Made by a program: the position numbers and the translations under genes | The notes under the pieces: model-generated | Databases searched by the model: none | What the model saw: only the letters and a program-made list of their open reading frames with translations | What the model was told of the DNA's origin: nothing | Shown: positions 53,807 through 60,810 of the stretch, piece by piece | Position numbering within the stretch: position 1 is the first letter of the stretch | How the letters are laid out: the number at the start of each line of letters is the position of its first letter | Origin: Capsulimonas corticalis | GTDB taxonomy: Bacteria; Armatimonadota; Armatimonadia; Armatimonadales; Capsulimonadaceae | NCBI RefSeq assembly: GCF_003574315.2 | Contig: NZ_AP025739.1 | Coordinates: forward strand, 6,634,001-6,698,000 | Direction of reading: 5' to 3' | DNA: 64,000 nucleotides

Positions 53807-54706
53807 TTACTGCCAGGCGTCGCAGGCGTTCGGGCCGGAGCTGGTGATCGCGCCGGACGCGTAGGGGTACCAGTTAGAGACTCCGTAGGGCGAGTTATCC
53901 TGAGCCGGCCCAAAGATATATTTGCACCAGCCGGCCGCGCCGGCGAGCGACGCCATGCGGATCGCCTTGACATGTCCGTCGGCGAAGACCATATTACAGG
54001 AGCCGTTGTGGCGGAAGCGCGGCATCTGCGCCGAGAACGGTCCGGAAGCGAACGATCCATTGTCGCTGTCGGCCTTCCTGGCCTGGCGCAGGTCGAACCC
54101 ACCGTCCGCCCACGCCCACTCCACCGAGGCGAACCGCACGTCGGACCAGTCCTTCTGGGATCCGTTGGCGCCCATATATCCCTTCTCGGCGATCAAGATC
54201 TTGTCGGAAGGATTGACGATCTGCGCCATCGTCGCCGACGGGTACTGCACCCCGATATTCCCGCTCCAGGCGTAACTGCTTTCGTCGCCGCCGATCCCCT
54301 CATTGATGCCGTACTGCCGCGAGGCGTTCTGCACCGGAAAGTCCGGACAGTTCCAAACGCCGCCGGTCAGCTCAAAGTGGCCGGTGTTGGCGCTCGATGT
54401 CGCGCCGCCGTTTTTGACATAAGGATTGACCGCCCACTGCCAGGAGATCGGATCGCTTGCGCTGGACCCAGGCACAGCGGCCCAATCGCCCGCGTCCGAG
54501 GCGCGCTGCACGAGAGGATACGTTTCATCATAATCCTGGCAGTACTGCATGACCGCCAGCCCCAGCTGCTTCTCATTCGACAGGCACGCGATCGCGCGCG
54601 CCTTGGCGCGCACGCTCGCAAACACTGGAAACAAGATTGCCGCCAGAACACAGATAATTGCAATGACAACTAACAGCTCAATGAGTGTAAATCCCTTATT
54701 CTTCAT
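53807..54706 (-). CDS. DUF1559-type pseudopilin
   Basis: A 299-residue protein with prepilin site [32 protein letters not shown], and the C-terminal MVFADGHVKAIRM. GAGG lies 6-7 nt before ATG 54706. It lies 102 bp downstream of the LacI-fusion gene on the same strand, so it may be controlled by it. The N-terminal helix has a Cys where the others have Ala. Confidence 0.92.
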   Translation of the reverse strand: MKNKGFTLIELLVVIAIICVLAAILFPVFASVRAKARAIACLSNEKQLGLAVMQYCQDYDETYPLVQRASDAGDWAAVPGSSASDPISWQWAVNPYVKNGGATSSANTGHFELTGGVWNCPDFPVQNASRQYGINEGIGGDESSYAWSGNIGVQYPSATMAQIVNPSDKILIAEKGYMGANGSQKDWSDVRFASVEWAWADGGFDLRQARKADSDNGSFASGPFSAQMPRFRHNGSCNMVFADGHVKAIRMASLAGAAGWCKYIFGPAQDNSPYGVSNWYPYASGAITSSGPNACDAWQ

Positions 54707-54807: not shown

Positions 54808-56154
54808 TTATTGGAGGCCGAAAAAGGGCGGCGCCGTCGTCGCGCGGACGATGAGCGTCGTCTCAACCGTCCGGCGACAATCATCGACGGGCGCTCCTCC
54901 GATCATGGCGATCAGACGCTCGGCGCCCTGTTCGCCGATTTTAAGAAACGGCTGCTGGATTGTGGTCAATCCGCCGCCGATACGGATGGCGTCGGGCACG
55001 TCGTTGAAGCCCGTGATGACGACGTCCTCGGGAACTCGGATATGACGCGCCCGCAGAAATTCAATGATAATCCGCGCAAACCCATCGTCCTGGGTGATGA
55101 TGGCTGTCGGCGGCGAGTTTGCAAACCACCGGTCCAGCATCTGTTCGTAATACGCATGGGACCAGATATCCTTGGTCGGGCTCGCCTCCAGACTCTTATC
55201 CCATGGGATCCCATGGGTTCGCAGGGACTGCCGATAGCCATCCCGCCGGTCCATGAAGTTGGAAGAATGGGCCGGGCCGACGAATGCGATACGCCGATGT
55301 CCCAGCGCTGCGAGGTGACTGACAAGCGCATGCATGGCGGCGTGGTTGTCGGTGTTGATATACCCGACGCCATCCGGAACGTGGCGCGTCAGCAAGGCCA
55401 TGGTGGGCAGTCCAGCGGCGGCGAGATGCCCCAGAATCGGTTCTCGGAGCGCGGGCGCAACCCAAATCAAGCCATCGATATTGCCATTTAGAAAAGCCGC
55501 CGCGTTATGGCGATGGGGCTGACCTTCCTCTCCGGTGTAGAGGAGGACATCGTAGCGCGCCCGGTCGGCGGCGCGATTGACGCCGCGCAGAATCGGCAAG
55601 GAGATATTTTCACCGGTATCTTCGACGCCCAATCCAAACGAAACGATCCCGATGATATGCGTGCGACGCTGGCGGATCGCGCGAACCAGAGCGCTGGGCG
55701 TAAAGTGCAGCGCCTCAATGGCGGTTTCGATCCGCTGGCGCGTCCCCTCGCCCATGCGTCCTTTATCGTTAAGATAATTGGAAATCGTCGCCGTGGAAAC
55801 GGCGGCCCGCTCCGCCACATCGTGAATAGTGGCTCTGCGCTTTCCCAATCCCTCCAACTCAGCGGCGGGGGCCTCGGCTTGCGCGTCAGGCGGCAGCGAT
55901 GCGTCGTCGCGCGAAGACAGCCAGTTAGCCACGGTGCGAGCGCTGACATTCAGATCTTCCGCAATTTGAGCCAGAGTCTTCCCCTCTCGCCGCATGCGCC
56001 CGGCGCTCTCCCGATGCTCATCCGAATATCCGCGCTCGCGGGGCTGCGGGGTATAGCGGCGACGGCATGCCTGGCACAAAAAACGCTGATTGCCGCCATT
56101 CAATCCGGCTTTCACCTGACCGTCCGTTCGACCGCAATGGGGACAAGAAATCAT
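54808..56154 (-). CDS. LacI-family regulator fused to an InsA-like zinc ribbon and extra HTH
   Basis: A 448-residue protein. Residues 1-40 form a transposase-type zinc ribbon (Cys4, Cys7, Cys27, Cys30 with GNQRFLCQAC). 48-82 is a second helix-turn-helix (LAQIAEDLNVSARTVANWL). 108-128 is a regular LacI HTH (TIHDVAERAAVSTATISNYL), and from about 166 a LacI sugar sensor (THIIGIVSFGL to LTTIQQPFLKIGEQGAERL). Thus it carries three DNA-binding modules. It is divergent from the pseudopilin at 56399 and upstream of the one at 53807. It is likely a sugar-responsive regulator. Confidence 0.9.
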   Translation of the reverse strand: MISCPHCGRTDGQVKAGLNGGNQRFLCQACRRRYTPQPRERGYSDEHRESAGRMRREGKTLAQIAEDLNVSARTVANWLSSRDDASLPPDAQAEAPAAELEGLGKRRATIHDVAERAAVSTATISNYLNDKGRMGEGTRQRIETAIEALHFTPSALVRAIRQRRTHIIGIVSFGLGVEDTGENISLPILRGVNRAADRARYDVLLYTGEEGQPHRHNAAAFLNGNIDGLIWVAPALREPILGHLAAAGLPTMALLTRHVPDGVGYINTDNHAAMHALVSHLAALGHRRIAFVGPAHSSNFMDRRDGYRQSLRTHGIPWDKSLEASPTKDIWSHAYYEQMLDRWFANSPPTAIITQDDGFARIIIEFLRARHIRVPEDVVITGFNDVPDAIRIGGGLTTIQQPFLKIGEQGAERLIAMIGGAPVDDCRRTVETTLIVRATTAPPFFGLQ

Positions 56155-56288
56155 AAGTTTATCATACCTTGCAGACCATCATTCGGATTGCGCCGATATC
56201 CTAAACATTGCTATTTCAGCAGAAATATATCCTATTTTATTCATAATTACATATAAAAACTTTCCATTACAAGGCGATATCTTTGGAA

Positions 56289-56336
56289 ATATTTTGCGAA
56301 ATATCACTTGACTATCCCGAAATGCCGTGTTACAAT
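56289..56336 (+). promoter_or_regulatory. Promoter and dyad before the pseudopilin at 56399
   Basis: TTGACT (56308-56313), 17 nt, TACAAT (56331-56336). Upstream, ATATTT-TGCG-AAATAT (56289-56304) is a dyad that could be the binding site of the divergent LacI-fusion regulator. Confidence 0.68.
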
Positions 56337-56398
56337 GACGATGCCATTGATGAACTTGGTACATCTAACTAATCGTGACTTGGAAGGGAGACGGATCC

Positions 56399-57232
56399 AT
56401 GAAAAAGAGTGTGAAGAGTAAACTTGGCTTCACGTTGATCGAATTACTAGTTGTTATCGCTATCATTGCAATACTCGCGGCGATTTTGTTCCCGGTTTTT
56501 GCTCAGGCTCGCGAAAAAGCGCGCCAAACTTCCTGCTCGTCCAATATGCGGCAAATTGGGTTAGCGGTAATGCAATATTTGCAGGACTATGACGGCAACT
56601 ATCCCATGGTGTACGCCGCCTACTCCTCGGATAACGGCGCATTCGGCGCCACCGGCGCGGATGTCCAGCTGCAGCCGTACATCAAGAATGGCGCCCAGGT
56701 CGCCAATAACAATGGGAATCTCTATGGTGGGGTCTGGAGCTGCCCTTCGGCGGCCATTCCGAACCAGACATCGCACTACCACTTCCGCCAGGACCTGTTC
56801 AGCGCTTCCTGGACGATTGGGAACTCCGGATTCGCCAGCGGCAATGAAACCATGGTGGGCGCGCCCGCCAATAAGATCATGATGATCGAGGGCGGCATGC
56901 AGGGCAAGACGGCGACACAAAATAGTGTCGGTATTCAGTTTTACACGGATATCTGGGCCGGCTGGGATGACTTCGGCAAGGCCCACTCGGACGGAAGCGA
57001 CATCAACCCTGGACGCCATGACTGCGACATTCAAGGCGCTCCGGCCGGCGGATGGGACTCCTGCGAACTGTTCCCACGATATCGGCATACCAGCATGGCG
57101 AACTTCCTGTTTCTGGATGGTCATGTCAAAGCCAAACGAAAAGGCAGTCTGAACTGGTATCGCGACATCTTTATCGGACGGATGGACGAAGGAACCGCCT
57201 CGCCCGGCTGGATGGGGCCAGCCGATTCCTAG
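56399..57232 (+). CDS. DUF1559-type pseudopilin
   Basis: A 277-residue protein with AAGGGAG 8 nt before ATG 56399. Prepilin site [35 protein letters not shown], and the C-terminal [14 protein letters not shown]. It is the first gene of a plus-strand unit that continues with a small lipoprotein 70 bp downstream. Its promoter faces the LacI-fusion gene. Confidence 0.93.
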
Positions 57233-57623: not shown

Positions 57624-57655
57624 TCAGCCGCCGGCATCTGCTGGCGGCTGATTTT
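57624..57655 (+). terminator. Terminator after the lipoprotein gene
   Basis: A 9-bp stem TCAGCCGCC (57624-57632) with GGCGGCTGA (57643-57651), then TTTT. It sits in the convergent region with the BlaR1 gene. Confidence 0.85.
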
Positions 57656-60419
57656 ATGTTGGGTTCGGTCGGAGATGGATATCTCGAAACTCAACTTTAT
57701 AGTAGGGACGCGTTTCCACATGGATCTCTCGAATATCGGAGGGAGCAATTTTGGGAACCTGAAACCAGGAAGTCGCCGTTTTTTCGTCCCACATGCTGCC
57801 GGACGTCTCCAGCGTCGTCATGCGTCCCGAGCGATCTACGACGATCAGACTGCGCTCCATTTCGCCCAAATGATCTGTCAGAGCCCAAATCTTTTTGTTA
57901 TCCGGCCCATGGGGAGCCGTCTTCGGGCCGGCGAAATCGACGACGCAGCCGTTCGCCTCCACTTCTTCCGCGCCCGGTTTTGGCGCTGGTATCACCGCCG
58001 CTGTAGACCAGGGGCCGCTCAGCACGGAGAATCGAAAGTTCGTGCGTTCAGGGATGGTGAGCAGGCGCGTCTCGCCATACCATTCTTCTTTGGGATTCCC
58101 GGTGGAAGACGCCCATGTTCCGATGACTTCGGATGACGAACTGCCCATCATGATCGGACTGCGACGCGTATCGGCCTGCCCGGTGACACGCAGCAAGTAG
58201 CCGATACTGTTGGGGGAAGCGATAAAGCCGTCGTCGCCCTTTGACTCCGCCGGGAGCCGCGTCCCGTCCGGCAGCCAGCGAGGCCCGTGCGGACTGGTCG
58301 CGACTTTAAGCAGCTCGATGGTGACGCCGCCCGGCGCATGCACGATCCCATCCGTTGGAATATGTGTTCCGGGCGCCGATGGATTCAGCGGTGGATTGCG
58401 CGCTTCGATGAGCTGCTTAGCTTCCTGGGATTCAGGAAAGCGGCGAATCAGTTCATCAGCGGCGGCGTTCGCCTTGACCTGATCGCCCGTCTGTGAAACC
58501 AGGCGAATATAGCTCATGCCGGCGTTCGGACTGGAGTTCTTGTCGTTCAGATCGAATACGTGTCGATAGATCGGAATCGCTTTTTGCGAATTGCCGCTCT
58601 GTTCATAAGCGGATCCCAGGTTAGCAATGATATTCGCATCGTTCGCCGCGCTAGGATACCGGGCCATGATCTTCGCAATCGCATCGGGAGAGACGCTATT
58701 CACGGCAAACAGCTTCTGCATCGCCGTGTTCGCCGCATTGGGAGCATTGGGGTAACGGTTCAAAAGATCGGCGTACACAATGGCCGCCTGCGCGTTCATG
58801 GAGGCCATGCTCAAATCATTCGCAAGCAACACCAAATCGTCGTAATTCAAGGCGCCCGTAGGATCCGTTTTCTTCGCCGCATGGTAGGCGCGGTATCGTT
58901 TGAGAGCATCCGACGCGCCACCGTCTTGTTTTATGGCTTCCTGACGGCGATACGTCTTCGCATCTCGCCGGGCTTCGAGGACATCGCCGACCGTTACGCC
59001 AGGCATTTGCGCGAGCTGTTCGGAAGCGTCCGCAGCCTCCGCGTATCGATTCAGCGCGAGGAGGACGGACACACGCTGACGCTGGGCGTCCAAATGAAGA
59101 TCATGAGTCCCATTTTCGGGCAGCCGCAGCGCGGCGTCGTAATCGATGAGCGCTTCCATATTGCGTCCGTCACTCGCTTCCCAGCCGCCGAGCAGGCTGT
59201 GCGCCAGGGCGGCTCGCGGATTCCCGTCTCCGGATTGGCGCAGGGCGGCGCTCAAACGCCGGATCGCGGCGTCGCGTTCGGCCGGAGTATTCTCAGTCCA
59301 GTTGATATGCTTGATGATATAATCCAGATTGTTCCTCGGCTTGCTGATGGCGGAAAGTGGAACGACGACGGCGAAGAAGACAAGCACTATAACGCCGGTA
59401 ACCTGGAATGAGGCGGGCGCGCGATTGACGGTCGCGCTGAGGATCGCCCGCAATCGACTTTCGATATGCGAGCGCCGCACCATGGAGACAGCGCCCGAAA
59501 CCTGACGATGGCGCAGGTTACGGACAATGGCGACGAGTTCGCCGGCATAGTCCGTGGGCGCGATTCCCGCCGCGATCACCCGATCATCGCAGGCGCGCTC
59601 GCTTTCATGAACCATCTGACGCAGCGCCCACCAGACGAGCGGGTTCGGCCAGTATAAAATGGCGACACAAGACGCCATCGACTGGCGTATCCAGTCGCGA
59701 CGGTCAACATGCGCCAGTTCATGAGCCAGAACGGCCCGCAGACGCTCCTGCGTCCAATCCTGCGCGCCGAACGGCAGTAAGATCACTCGGCGCTTGAACC
59801 CCCAGGTCATCGGCGACAAATCGGCCGTCTGTTCCGCCCCTTGCAGTACAACAACCGAGGCCTTCGTCATCGCCTCAACTTGCGCCCGAATACTGGCGTC
59901 GGAAACTGTGCGCGCGTCACGAGCGAGACTGCGCAGGCTCCGCCGGGCCGCAACGAAGCGCGCAATGCCCAGCAGCACGCCGGCCGCCCAGATTGCAAGG
60001 AGCGCGAACGCGCCGATGAGACCGGGCGCGGGATGGGCGAGCGGAGGAACGTTTGGGATGGCGGCGACGGGACTGATGGGACCGGCGGGAACATTTTCCA
60101 CAGACGAGTGCTGGGCGCCGGCGGTCGCCGCCCAATGCGGCGCCTGAGGAATGAAAACAACCCCATGGGAGGCGGGCGGAGGATTCGAAACAGTCGGCGC
60201 GGCGGTGAATTTTGGCCAGCCCTCAAACTCATTGGGCGGCAGCCCGATCGCCAAAATGGGCAGGTAAGCGAGCGCAACGAAAGTAACCGCCCAGACGAAG
60301 TGCCGCACCGCCGCCGACGCGCGGGTCAGGCAAAAGGCAAGAACGGAGGCGATCAGGATGATAATCGCGCTCTTCAGCAGCAGATCCCCCAGCAAGAAAG
60401 GCAAGTGACTAGTCGCCAT
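57654..60419 (-). CDS. BlaR1-type M56 membrane metallopeptidase with TPR-like region
   Basis: A 921-residue protein. Transmembrane helices near 13-31, 38-60, 132-153 and 325-345; zinc site HELAH at 233-237 and Glu273 in HESERACDD. The middle (about 370-680) is a TPR-like helical array (AALAHSLLGGWEASDGRNME, then GSAYEQSGNSQKAIPIYRHV). No penicillin-binding sensor domain follows; the end is a beta-rich region (about 690-921). It would cleave the BlaI repressor on an unknown signal. It overlaps the blaI gene by 11 bp. Confidence 0.87.
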   Translation of the reverse strand: MATSHLPFLLGDLLLKSAIIILIASVLAFCLTRASAAVRHFVWAVTFVALAYLPILAIGLPPNEFEGWPKFTAAPTVSNPPPASHGVVFIPQAPHWAATAGAQHSSVENVPAGPISPVAAIPNVPPLAHPAPGLIGAFALLAIWAAGVLLGIARFVAARRSLRSLARDARTVSDASIRAQVEAMTKASVVVLQGAEQTADLSPMTWGFKRRVILLPFGAQDWTQERLRAVLAHELAHVDRRDWIRQSMASCVAILYWPNPLVWWALRQMVHESERACDDRVIAAGIAPTDYAGELVAIVRNLRHRQVSGAVSMVRRSHIESRLRAILSATVNRAPASFQVTGVIVLVFFAVVVPLSAISKPRNNLDYIIKHINWTENTPAERDAAIRRLSAALRQSGDGNPRAALAHSLLGGWEASDGRNMEALIDYDAALRLPENGTHDLHLDAQRQRVSVLLALNRYAEAADASEQLAQMPGVTVGDVLEARRDAKTYRRQEAIKQDGGASDALKRYRAYHAAKKTDPTGALNYDDLVLLANDLSMASMNAQAAIVYADLLNRYPNAPNAANTAMQKLFAVNSVSPDAIAKIMARYPSAANDANIIANLGSAYEQSGNSQKAIPIYRHVFDLNDKNSSPNAGMSYIRLVSQTGDQVKANAAADELIRRFPESQEAKQLIEARNPPLNPSAPGTHIPTDGIVHAPGGVTIELLKVATSPHGPRWLPDGTRLPAESKGDDGFIASPNSIGYLLRVTGQADTRRSPIMMGSSSSEVIGTWASSTGNPKEEWYGETRLLTIPERTNFRFSVLSGPWSTAAVIPAPKPGAEEVEANGCVVDFAGPKTAPHGPDNKKIWALTDHLGEMERSLIVVDRSGRMTTLETSGSMWDEKTATSWFQVPKIAPSDIREIHVETRPYYKVEFRDIHLRPNPT

Positions 60420-60810
60420 CGGTCCGTTCCCCCTGTTTCGCGTCCTCGATCAATCGCGTCAATCGATCCAGGTCTTCGTCGCTGATATCGCTTTCATCGT
60501 CCGCAATCAGAGTGGTGACGGCCCGAGCCGCATTGCCGCCGAAAAACGTGCGCACGATTTGGCGCAGCGCCGAACGAGCGGCCGCCTGACGGGGCTGAGT
60601 CGGGCGGAACAGATACTTTTTGCCCTGCTCGACATGCGTCACATGCCCCTTCTCCTCCAGAATCCGCAGCAGCGCCCGGACCGCCGAATAGCTCGGCGCG
60701 TCGGGCAGCGCCTCCACGACATCCGCCGCCGAGACCTCGCCCCGCTCGTACACAATATCCATGATCTGCCGCTCACGCCGGCTCAGCGTAACCGCATTTG
60801 GCTTTGGCAT
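60409..60810 (-). CDS. BlaI/MecI-family transcriptional repressor
   Basis: A 133-residue protein. The winged-helix part (LSRRERQIMDIVYERGEVSA, AVRALLRILEEKGHVTH) and the C-terminal dimerisation helices (ALRQIVRTFFGGNAARAV) match BlaI/MecI. GGAGGG lies 4-5 nt before the ATG. It would repress itself and the peptidase by the TGCTA-type sites upstream; the BlaR1-like peptidase would remove it. Confidence 0.92.
   Translation of the reverse strand: MPKPNAVTLSRRERQIMDIVYERGEVSAADVVEALPDAPSYSAVRALLRILEEKGHVTHVEQGKKYLFRPTQPRQAAARSALRQIVRTFFGGNAARAVTTLIADDESDISDEDLDRLTRLIEDAKQGERTDGD

Follow-up and report, generated by a model that had tools for sequence, protein, structure and literature searches.

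A LacI-family repressor of Capsulimonas corticalis with an N-terminal IS1-type zinc ribbon and a second helix-turn-helix

The capture of a transposase DNA-binding domain by a host regulator is a familiar theme in eukaryotes, where it has given rise to host-transposase fusion transcription factors. LacI-family repressors such as RbsR, CytR, CcpA and LacI are built from a LacI helix-turn-helix (HTH), a hinge helix and a Peripla_BP_3 core, with the HTH usually, though not as a strictly defining trait, at the very N-terminus, and they act on sugar-use targets from operators near the transcription start. One survey counted 1251 of 1303 LacI operators as even palindromes and odd motifs in about 4% of the regulators (PMC4052901). 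The IS1 proteins InsA and InsAB' begin with a Cys4 ribbon and an HTH, and InsA is an autorepressor acting on its own promoter (PMC12428005).

Here, we describe a gene of C. corticalis which joins these two architectures. It lies in a window of 64,000 nucleotides, the whole stretch of DNA analysed, and is read as a single unbroken frame with an ATG start (Table 1). The product shares the HTH, hinge helix and sensor core of LacI-family repressors and, by prediction, their operator position and sugar-use targets, but carries about 105 additional N-terminal residues with a ribbon and an HTH, so that its LacI HTH starts at residue 109. It shares the N-terminal ribbon and HTH with InsA and InsAB', but lacks a match to the DDE domain and instead continues in frame into a sugar sensor. 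Like the eukaryotic fusions it holds a captured transposase DNA-binding domain; unlike them it is bacterial, and the partner already possessed its own DNA-binding domain and ligand sensor. Titles and opening lines of abstracts, on topics including bacterial transposase domestication, InsA-like architectures, and xyloglucan and LacI in Armatimonadota, mentioned no bacterial IS1 head on a sugar repressor.

Table 1. Features of the fusion gene and its surroundings, in window coordinates.
Feature	Position	Strand	Evidence
Fusion gene, IS1-type ribbon + HTH + LacI repressor, 448 aa	54808..56154	-	domain matches; six further full-length copies
Zinc ribbon, residues 1-35 (C4, C7, C27, C30)	56050..56154	-	cysteines invariant 7/7; beta hairpin in model
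First HTH, residues 45-82, HTH_23-like	55909..56022	-	PF13384 1.4e-6 over 53-80; three helices, block pLDDT about 79-92
Disordered linker, residues 83-106	55837..55908	-	pLDDT <50; dN ~ dS in L003/L012 pair
LacI HTH, residues 109-154	55693..55830	-	PF00356 2.1e-15
Hinge helix, residues 155-163	55666..55692	-	helix in AlphaFold model
Periplasmic-binding-protein-like sensor core, ~residues 166-441	54832..55659	-	PF13377 7.9e-31, PF00532 7.9e-17
Predicted operator TGATGAACTTGGTACATCT, one mismatch from consensus	56348..56366	.	motif search upstream of query
-35 TTGACT of divergent prepilin-like gene	56308..56313	+	promoter scan
Extended -10 TACAAT of prepilin-like gene, operator begins 11 nt later	56331..56336	+	promoter scan
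Possible -10 TATGAT of fusion gene, 6 nt before ATG, leaderless-like	56161..56166	-	consensus match only
Prepilin-like gene, N-methylation signal, DUF1559-type, presumed target	56399..57232	+	PF07596 match at G000:C1:6690504-6690683
Second prepilin-like gene, downstream of fusion gene, same strand	53807..54706	-	gene call

The open reading frame encodes one protein with a Cys4 ribbon (CPHC, C4/C7; CQAC, C27/C30) and HTH, a disordered linker and a complete LacI repressor; the ribbon, HTH and LacI parts had already been read by the first-pass annotation. Residues 4-93 match positions 1-93 of the 199 in the IS1 transposase model NF033558 (E 5.6e-13), with 49.3 bits against a curated whole-family score of 100 bits. 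Model positions 94-199 are unmatched and the LacI part follows instead. The Zn_ribbon_InsA model PF03811 is weak by itself (18.2 bits, cut-off 26.1), thus the IS1 assignment rests on the longer NF033558 model and on the ribbon tree described below. Profiles of the LacI family match residues 105-442. PF00356 (56.6 bits, cut-off 27) and, at residues 278-440, PF13377 (107.8 bits, cut-off 26.5) score far above their thresholds. An AlphaFold model built with seven sequences (mean pLDDT 76) shows a beta hairpin and three helices (45-56, 61-68 and 72-82) in residues 1-82, then the linker, then a LacI fold with hinge helix and the PF13377 fold. A Foldseek search with residues 1-93 returned nothing at or under 0.001. 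The three DNA-contact modules proposed in the first-pass annotation are all present as potential modules, by homology; the longer or composite operator attached to them did not fare as well, as discussed below.

Seven full-length fusions were found in 3 of 291 Armatimonadota genomes when InsA-ribbon-plus-LacI architectures and their contexts were sought. Four are in the C. corticalis genome (G000, a single contig of 7,645,051 bases), namely the query, L002, L003 and L004; two are in a genome of the same genus (G134; L012 and L028) and one is in a genome of the same family (G129; L011). The phylum search at 1e-18 matched 9 of the 291 genomes, of which three have ribbon and LacI by covered ranges, the remaining rows being LacI-only or ribbon-only. 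A scan of genome contigs with LacI-HTH patterns, which other ribbon-LacI lineages could escape, gave three full-length loci, in agreement with those of G129 and G134. For the search outside Armatimonadota we took the phylum to which G291 belongs, the genome that holds an Anaerolineae locus: among 400 genomes of that phylum none had ribbon plus LacI, and the 13 matching at 1e-20 were all ribbon-only. In 335 matching plasmid records no locus reached 80% coverage of the query, and in four stretches that we examined (three from the phylum of G291, one from G106) every ribbon frame either was of IS1 type or extended such a frame by chance.

The other six fusions are 46-51% identical to the query, and C4, C7, C27, C30, N77 and W78 are among the columns invariant in all seven. 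Since the architecture recurs in six further proteins with invariant columns, both chance and a sequencing join are excluded as its source. The first-pass annotation had itself raised a frameshift or assembly join between the ribbon and LacI parts as an objection. The seven copies, at this divergence and in three assemblies, contradict it, as do the invariant cysteines, and we assign an error of this kind, or a chance open reading frame, a negligible probability. The weld of ribbon to LacI is real, old and selected for.

To examine its origin we compared trees of the two parts. The ribbon-HTHs of the seven fusions form one clade (82/92) adjoining IS1-family elements of the order-level relatives G106 and G139, within a group holding IS1-type elements of G106, G139 and G007; this tree picked up all but 6 of the 20 IS loci supplied (L094, L112, L117, L118, L119 and L122 were missed). 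The sole IS1 element of the C. corticalis genome falls in another group (100/100). That element, at G000:C1:6462139-6462754 (L029, L030), has terminal repeats of about 25 bp and an A-run between its insA and insB frames. The LacI parts belong to a clade of nine (100/100) which includes two ribbonless proteins, L024 from G134 and L013 from the order-level relative G106. The first LacI tree lacked 10 of 28 rows missed by the motif and frame picker (L005, L007, L008, L009, L010, L016, L018, L022, L026 and L027); in the second, L005 was restored and L006 and L023 were dropped for long branches. L024 is sister to L002 (100/100), so its ribbon was probably lost. The prepilin-like gene adjoining L002 is absent beside L024, and the absence of both ribbon and gene suggests one deletion. 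A tree constrained to group the seven fusions with L024, to the exclusion of L013, is worse by 0.60 log units (p-AU 0.47); a single capture is thus compatible with the tree, which neither rejects nor demonstrates it.

The only close orthologous pair, L003 and L012, allowed selection to be compared between segments. Ribbon and HTH (dN 0.0185, dS 0.451) are the most constrained, ahead of the core (0.052, 0.384) and the LacI HTH (0.046, 0.215), while the linker is free (0.130, 0.119). The proposal of a domesticated, mobile-element-derived domain is supported by the IS1-type homology, the clade beside IS1-family elements, this strong purifying selection and the lack of a match to a transposase catalytic domain. 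That the protein might still act on IS1 elements, or be a working transposase, is suggested by its IS1-type end-binding domain and by the one IS1 element in the genome. We consider this very improbable, given the unmatched DDE domain, nearest IS relatives that fall outside the IS1 subgroup of the local element, and predicted operators unlike the local IS1 ends.

Two traces of the source element were pursued. Where a decayed ribbon was sought ahead of the two ribbonless genes, L013 and L024, a scored match with stops in G106 held no ribbon when read. A stretch upstream of L012 (in L106) is similar to the left end of the IS1-type element in G106, with 2 of 500 shuffles as good, and is possibly a remnant of a captured IS promoter; in the eight rows compared, L003 reached 50 of 500 and the other six at least 108, which makes the likeness weak over eight tests.

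Next, we turned to the predicted operator. The upstream regions of the query, L002, L004 and L011 share the motif derived from them, TGATGWACNNNGTWCATCA, and this 19-bp odd palindrome or a variant is found at six of the seven fusion loci. It is the minority form in the family, unlike the even, CG-centred operator which is usual but not defining. L003 and L012 have a variant in common, 3-4 mismatches from the consensus, which in C. corticalis precedes a prepilin-like gene and has a third copy at 7261177; the L028 locus has no such palindrome. The 7.6-Mb C. corticalis genome holds one exact and four one-mismatch sites, against 0.10 expected from base composition up to one mismatch. All five are intergenic; three lie at fusion genes used for the motif and two are independent. 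Allowing up to three mismatches raises the count to 44, compared to 21 for a reversed control pattern, and with only 12 of the 44 intergenic the weaker sites are mostly chance.

The independent site at 1573095 lies 64 bp before a GH2 gene; the product of the next gene along is closest to GH74 xyloglucanases (1.1e-197). The other, at 4790719, lies 89 bp before the gene of a small protein whose sole PDB match is NopAA (3.9e-28), which we take to be a GH12 enzyme. Gene calls around the sites came from a codon-score caller and their starts may be misplaced. In G134 a variant palindrome directly precedes the GH74 orthologue. Of 13 other genomes scanned, only G129 showed a site within one mismatch, a single one ahead of the fusion gene of that genome. 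An operator-like site with two mismatches at G000:C1:3057516-3057534 (L155) stands 54 bp upstream of a prepilin-like gene whose neighbour encodes a GntR-like regulator (named by eye). Palindromes occur in tandem, 21-22 bp apart, at the G129 fusion locus (L104:7064-7103) and at the ribbonless L013 locus (L108:14257-14297). An origin of the operator in IS1 ends was rejected, with 8-10 of 19 positions matching the local ends and shuffles equal or better in 290-980 of 1000.

At the ribbonless L013 locus stands TGGTAAACTCCCTTAACCA, with a weaker site at a distance of 22 bp, and these two are the only matches within one mismatch in its 5-Mb genome to a pattern designed on TGGTAAACTCCCTTAACCA. As L013 has the same class of palindrome, the LacI HTH, rather than the ribbon, probably reads the operator, and the odd form of the palindrome seems to be tied to the LacI clade.

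The sites share a promoter geometry. With the sites oriented towards the presumed target, and L013, which lacks a promoter so placed, set aside, 9 of 10 have the operator 7-12 nt behind a promoter with a TTGAC-type -35, 17 or 18 nt, and TGnTANNNT, the distance being 11 nt in six; L004 is the exception. None of 2000 shuffles reached either count. These are sigma-70-type promoters of the TTGACR-17-TGnTATAAT type. In the window the promoter (56308-56336) and operator (56348-56366) precede the prepilin-like ATG at 56399. A plain consensus scan of the fusion locus gave this one promoter against a shuffle average of 1.4, and none on the minus strand of the fusion gene; the evidence is thus the shared geometry rather than the lone match. 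A protein bound at the predicted operator would cover about +5 to +23, close to the position of the lac operator O1, and act as a roadblock.

The flanks of nine sites (without L012 and L013) are more alike than those of shuffles, of which 0 of 60 reach this likeness, and the only nameable signal beyond the operator is the sigma-70-type promoter. This bears on the idea that ribbon, first HTH and LacI HTH jointly read one long or composite operator. E. coli InsA requires both zinc finger and HTH for specific end binding (PMC12428005), and the alike flanks point the same way; however, the promoter at nine of ten sites may be enough to account for that likeness, the predicted site spans 19 bp, and the sites do not resemble local IS1 ends. 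We regard such joint reading as unlikely, and the longer operator of the first-pass annotation is not supported, the predicted site being 19 bp long and of a class which a ribbonless sister shares.

We propose, with a probability of roughly 0.7, a single capture of an IS1 head by a LacI repressor, followed by roadblock repression at 19-bp palindromes with the ribbon as a second grip. A LacI-family gene would have taken in, in frame, the Cys4 ribbon and HTH of an IS1-family transposase N-terminus, probably in a single event within the lineage of the bacterial family, with later duplication and retention. The LacI part would dimerise on the odd palindrome, a short way behind strong sigma-70-type promoters, and block initiation or early elongation of the neighbouring prepilin-like gene. 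Related paralogues would likewise block xyloglucan-degrading glycoside hydrolase genes, and a sugar from the polymer would presumably bring release. Judging from homology and selection, the flexibly tethered ribbon-HTH probably gives the repressor a second hold on DNA, raising affinity or selecting sites. Several observations weigh against the proposal: the ribbonless L013, with its palindrome of the same class, and L024, a ribbonless relative of L002, indicate that the ribbon is dispensable for this operator type; L028 lacks such a site and L004 the promoter geometry; the L003 and L012 sites diverge from the consensus, as does the query's own site by one base; the palindrome is odd; and the glycoside hydrolase sites are remote from the query gene. 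With a small family, related ribbonless proteins and a promoter carrying a predicted operator, the effect of an extra DNA-binding head on a repressor is directly testable.

The role of the ribbon admits two further readings. It may no longer bind DNA and may be kept for folding, oligomerisation or RNA-polymerase contact in an otherwise ordinary LacI repressor, as the shared operator class of L013, the ribbon loss in L024 and the promoter as sole nameable flank motif would allow. The four cysteines and the HTH positions N77 and W78, invariant in all seven fusions, and the constraint on the ribbon-HTH in the one pair tested speak against it, and we find this reading doubtful while giving it real weight. 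Alternatively, the captured head might still recognise DNA of its own, IS-end-like or other, so that a dimer of the repressor would grip sites of two kinds at once through the flexible tether. Were this so, the protein would be a natural bacterial host-transposase fusion regulator, either bridging or looping DNA or coupling the sugar state to the ends of mobile elements; we think such two-site reading rather improbable.

Returning to the roadblock model, we consider the presumed regulon. Next to L002 are encoded a GH31 of YicI type, a GH3 and a sugar ABC transporter; together with the GH74, GH12-like and GH2 genes these fit xyloglucan use. The related copies appear to switch genes for digestion of plant-wall xyloglucan. 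Which of the four C. corticalis paralogues acts at which site we infer rather than observe: for the query, the direct evidence is its own predicted site, beside the prepilin-like gene, whereas those at glycoside hydrolase genes lie elsewhere in the genome. LacI genes lie within 1.5 kb of prepilin-like genes in 39 of 92 cases, compared to a random mean of 6.7 (92 of 94 LacI rows, the query and a ribbon-only row left out; 150 DUF1559 rows out of a larger number), so that such a neighbour is not special to the fusions. In the genome as a whole, LacI-type genes number about 90 and prepilin-like genes of the DUF1559 type at least 150. Further along the window, at 57654-60810, an M56-type peptidase-like membrane protein has a BlaI-type repressor gene directly upstream, and by eye the two resemble a BlaR/BlaI pair.
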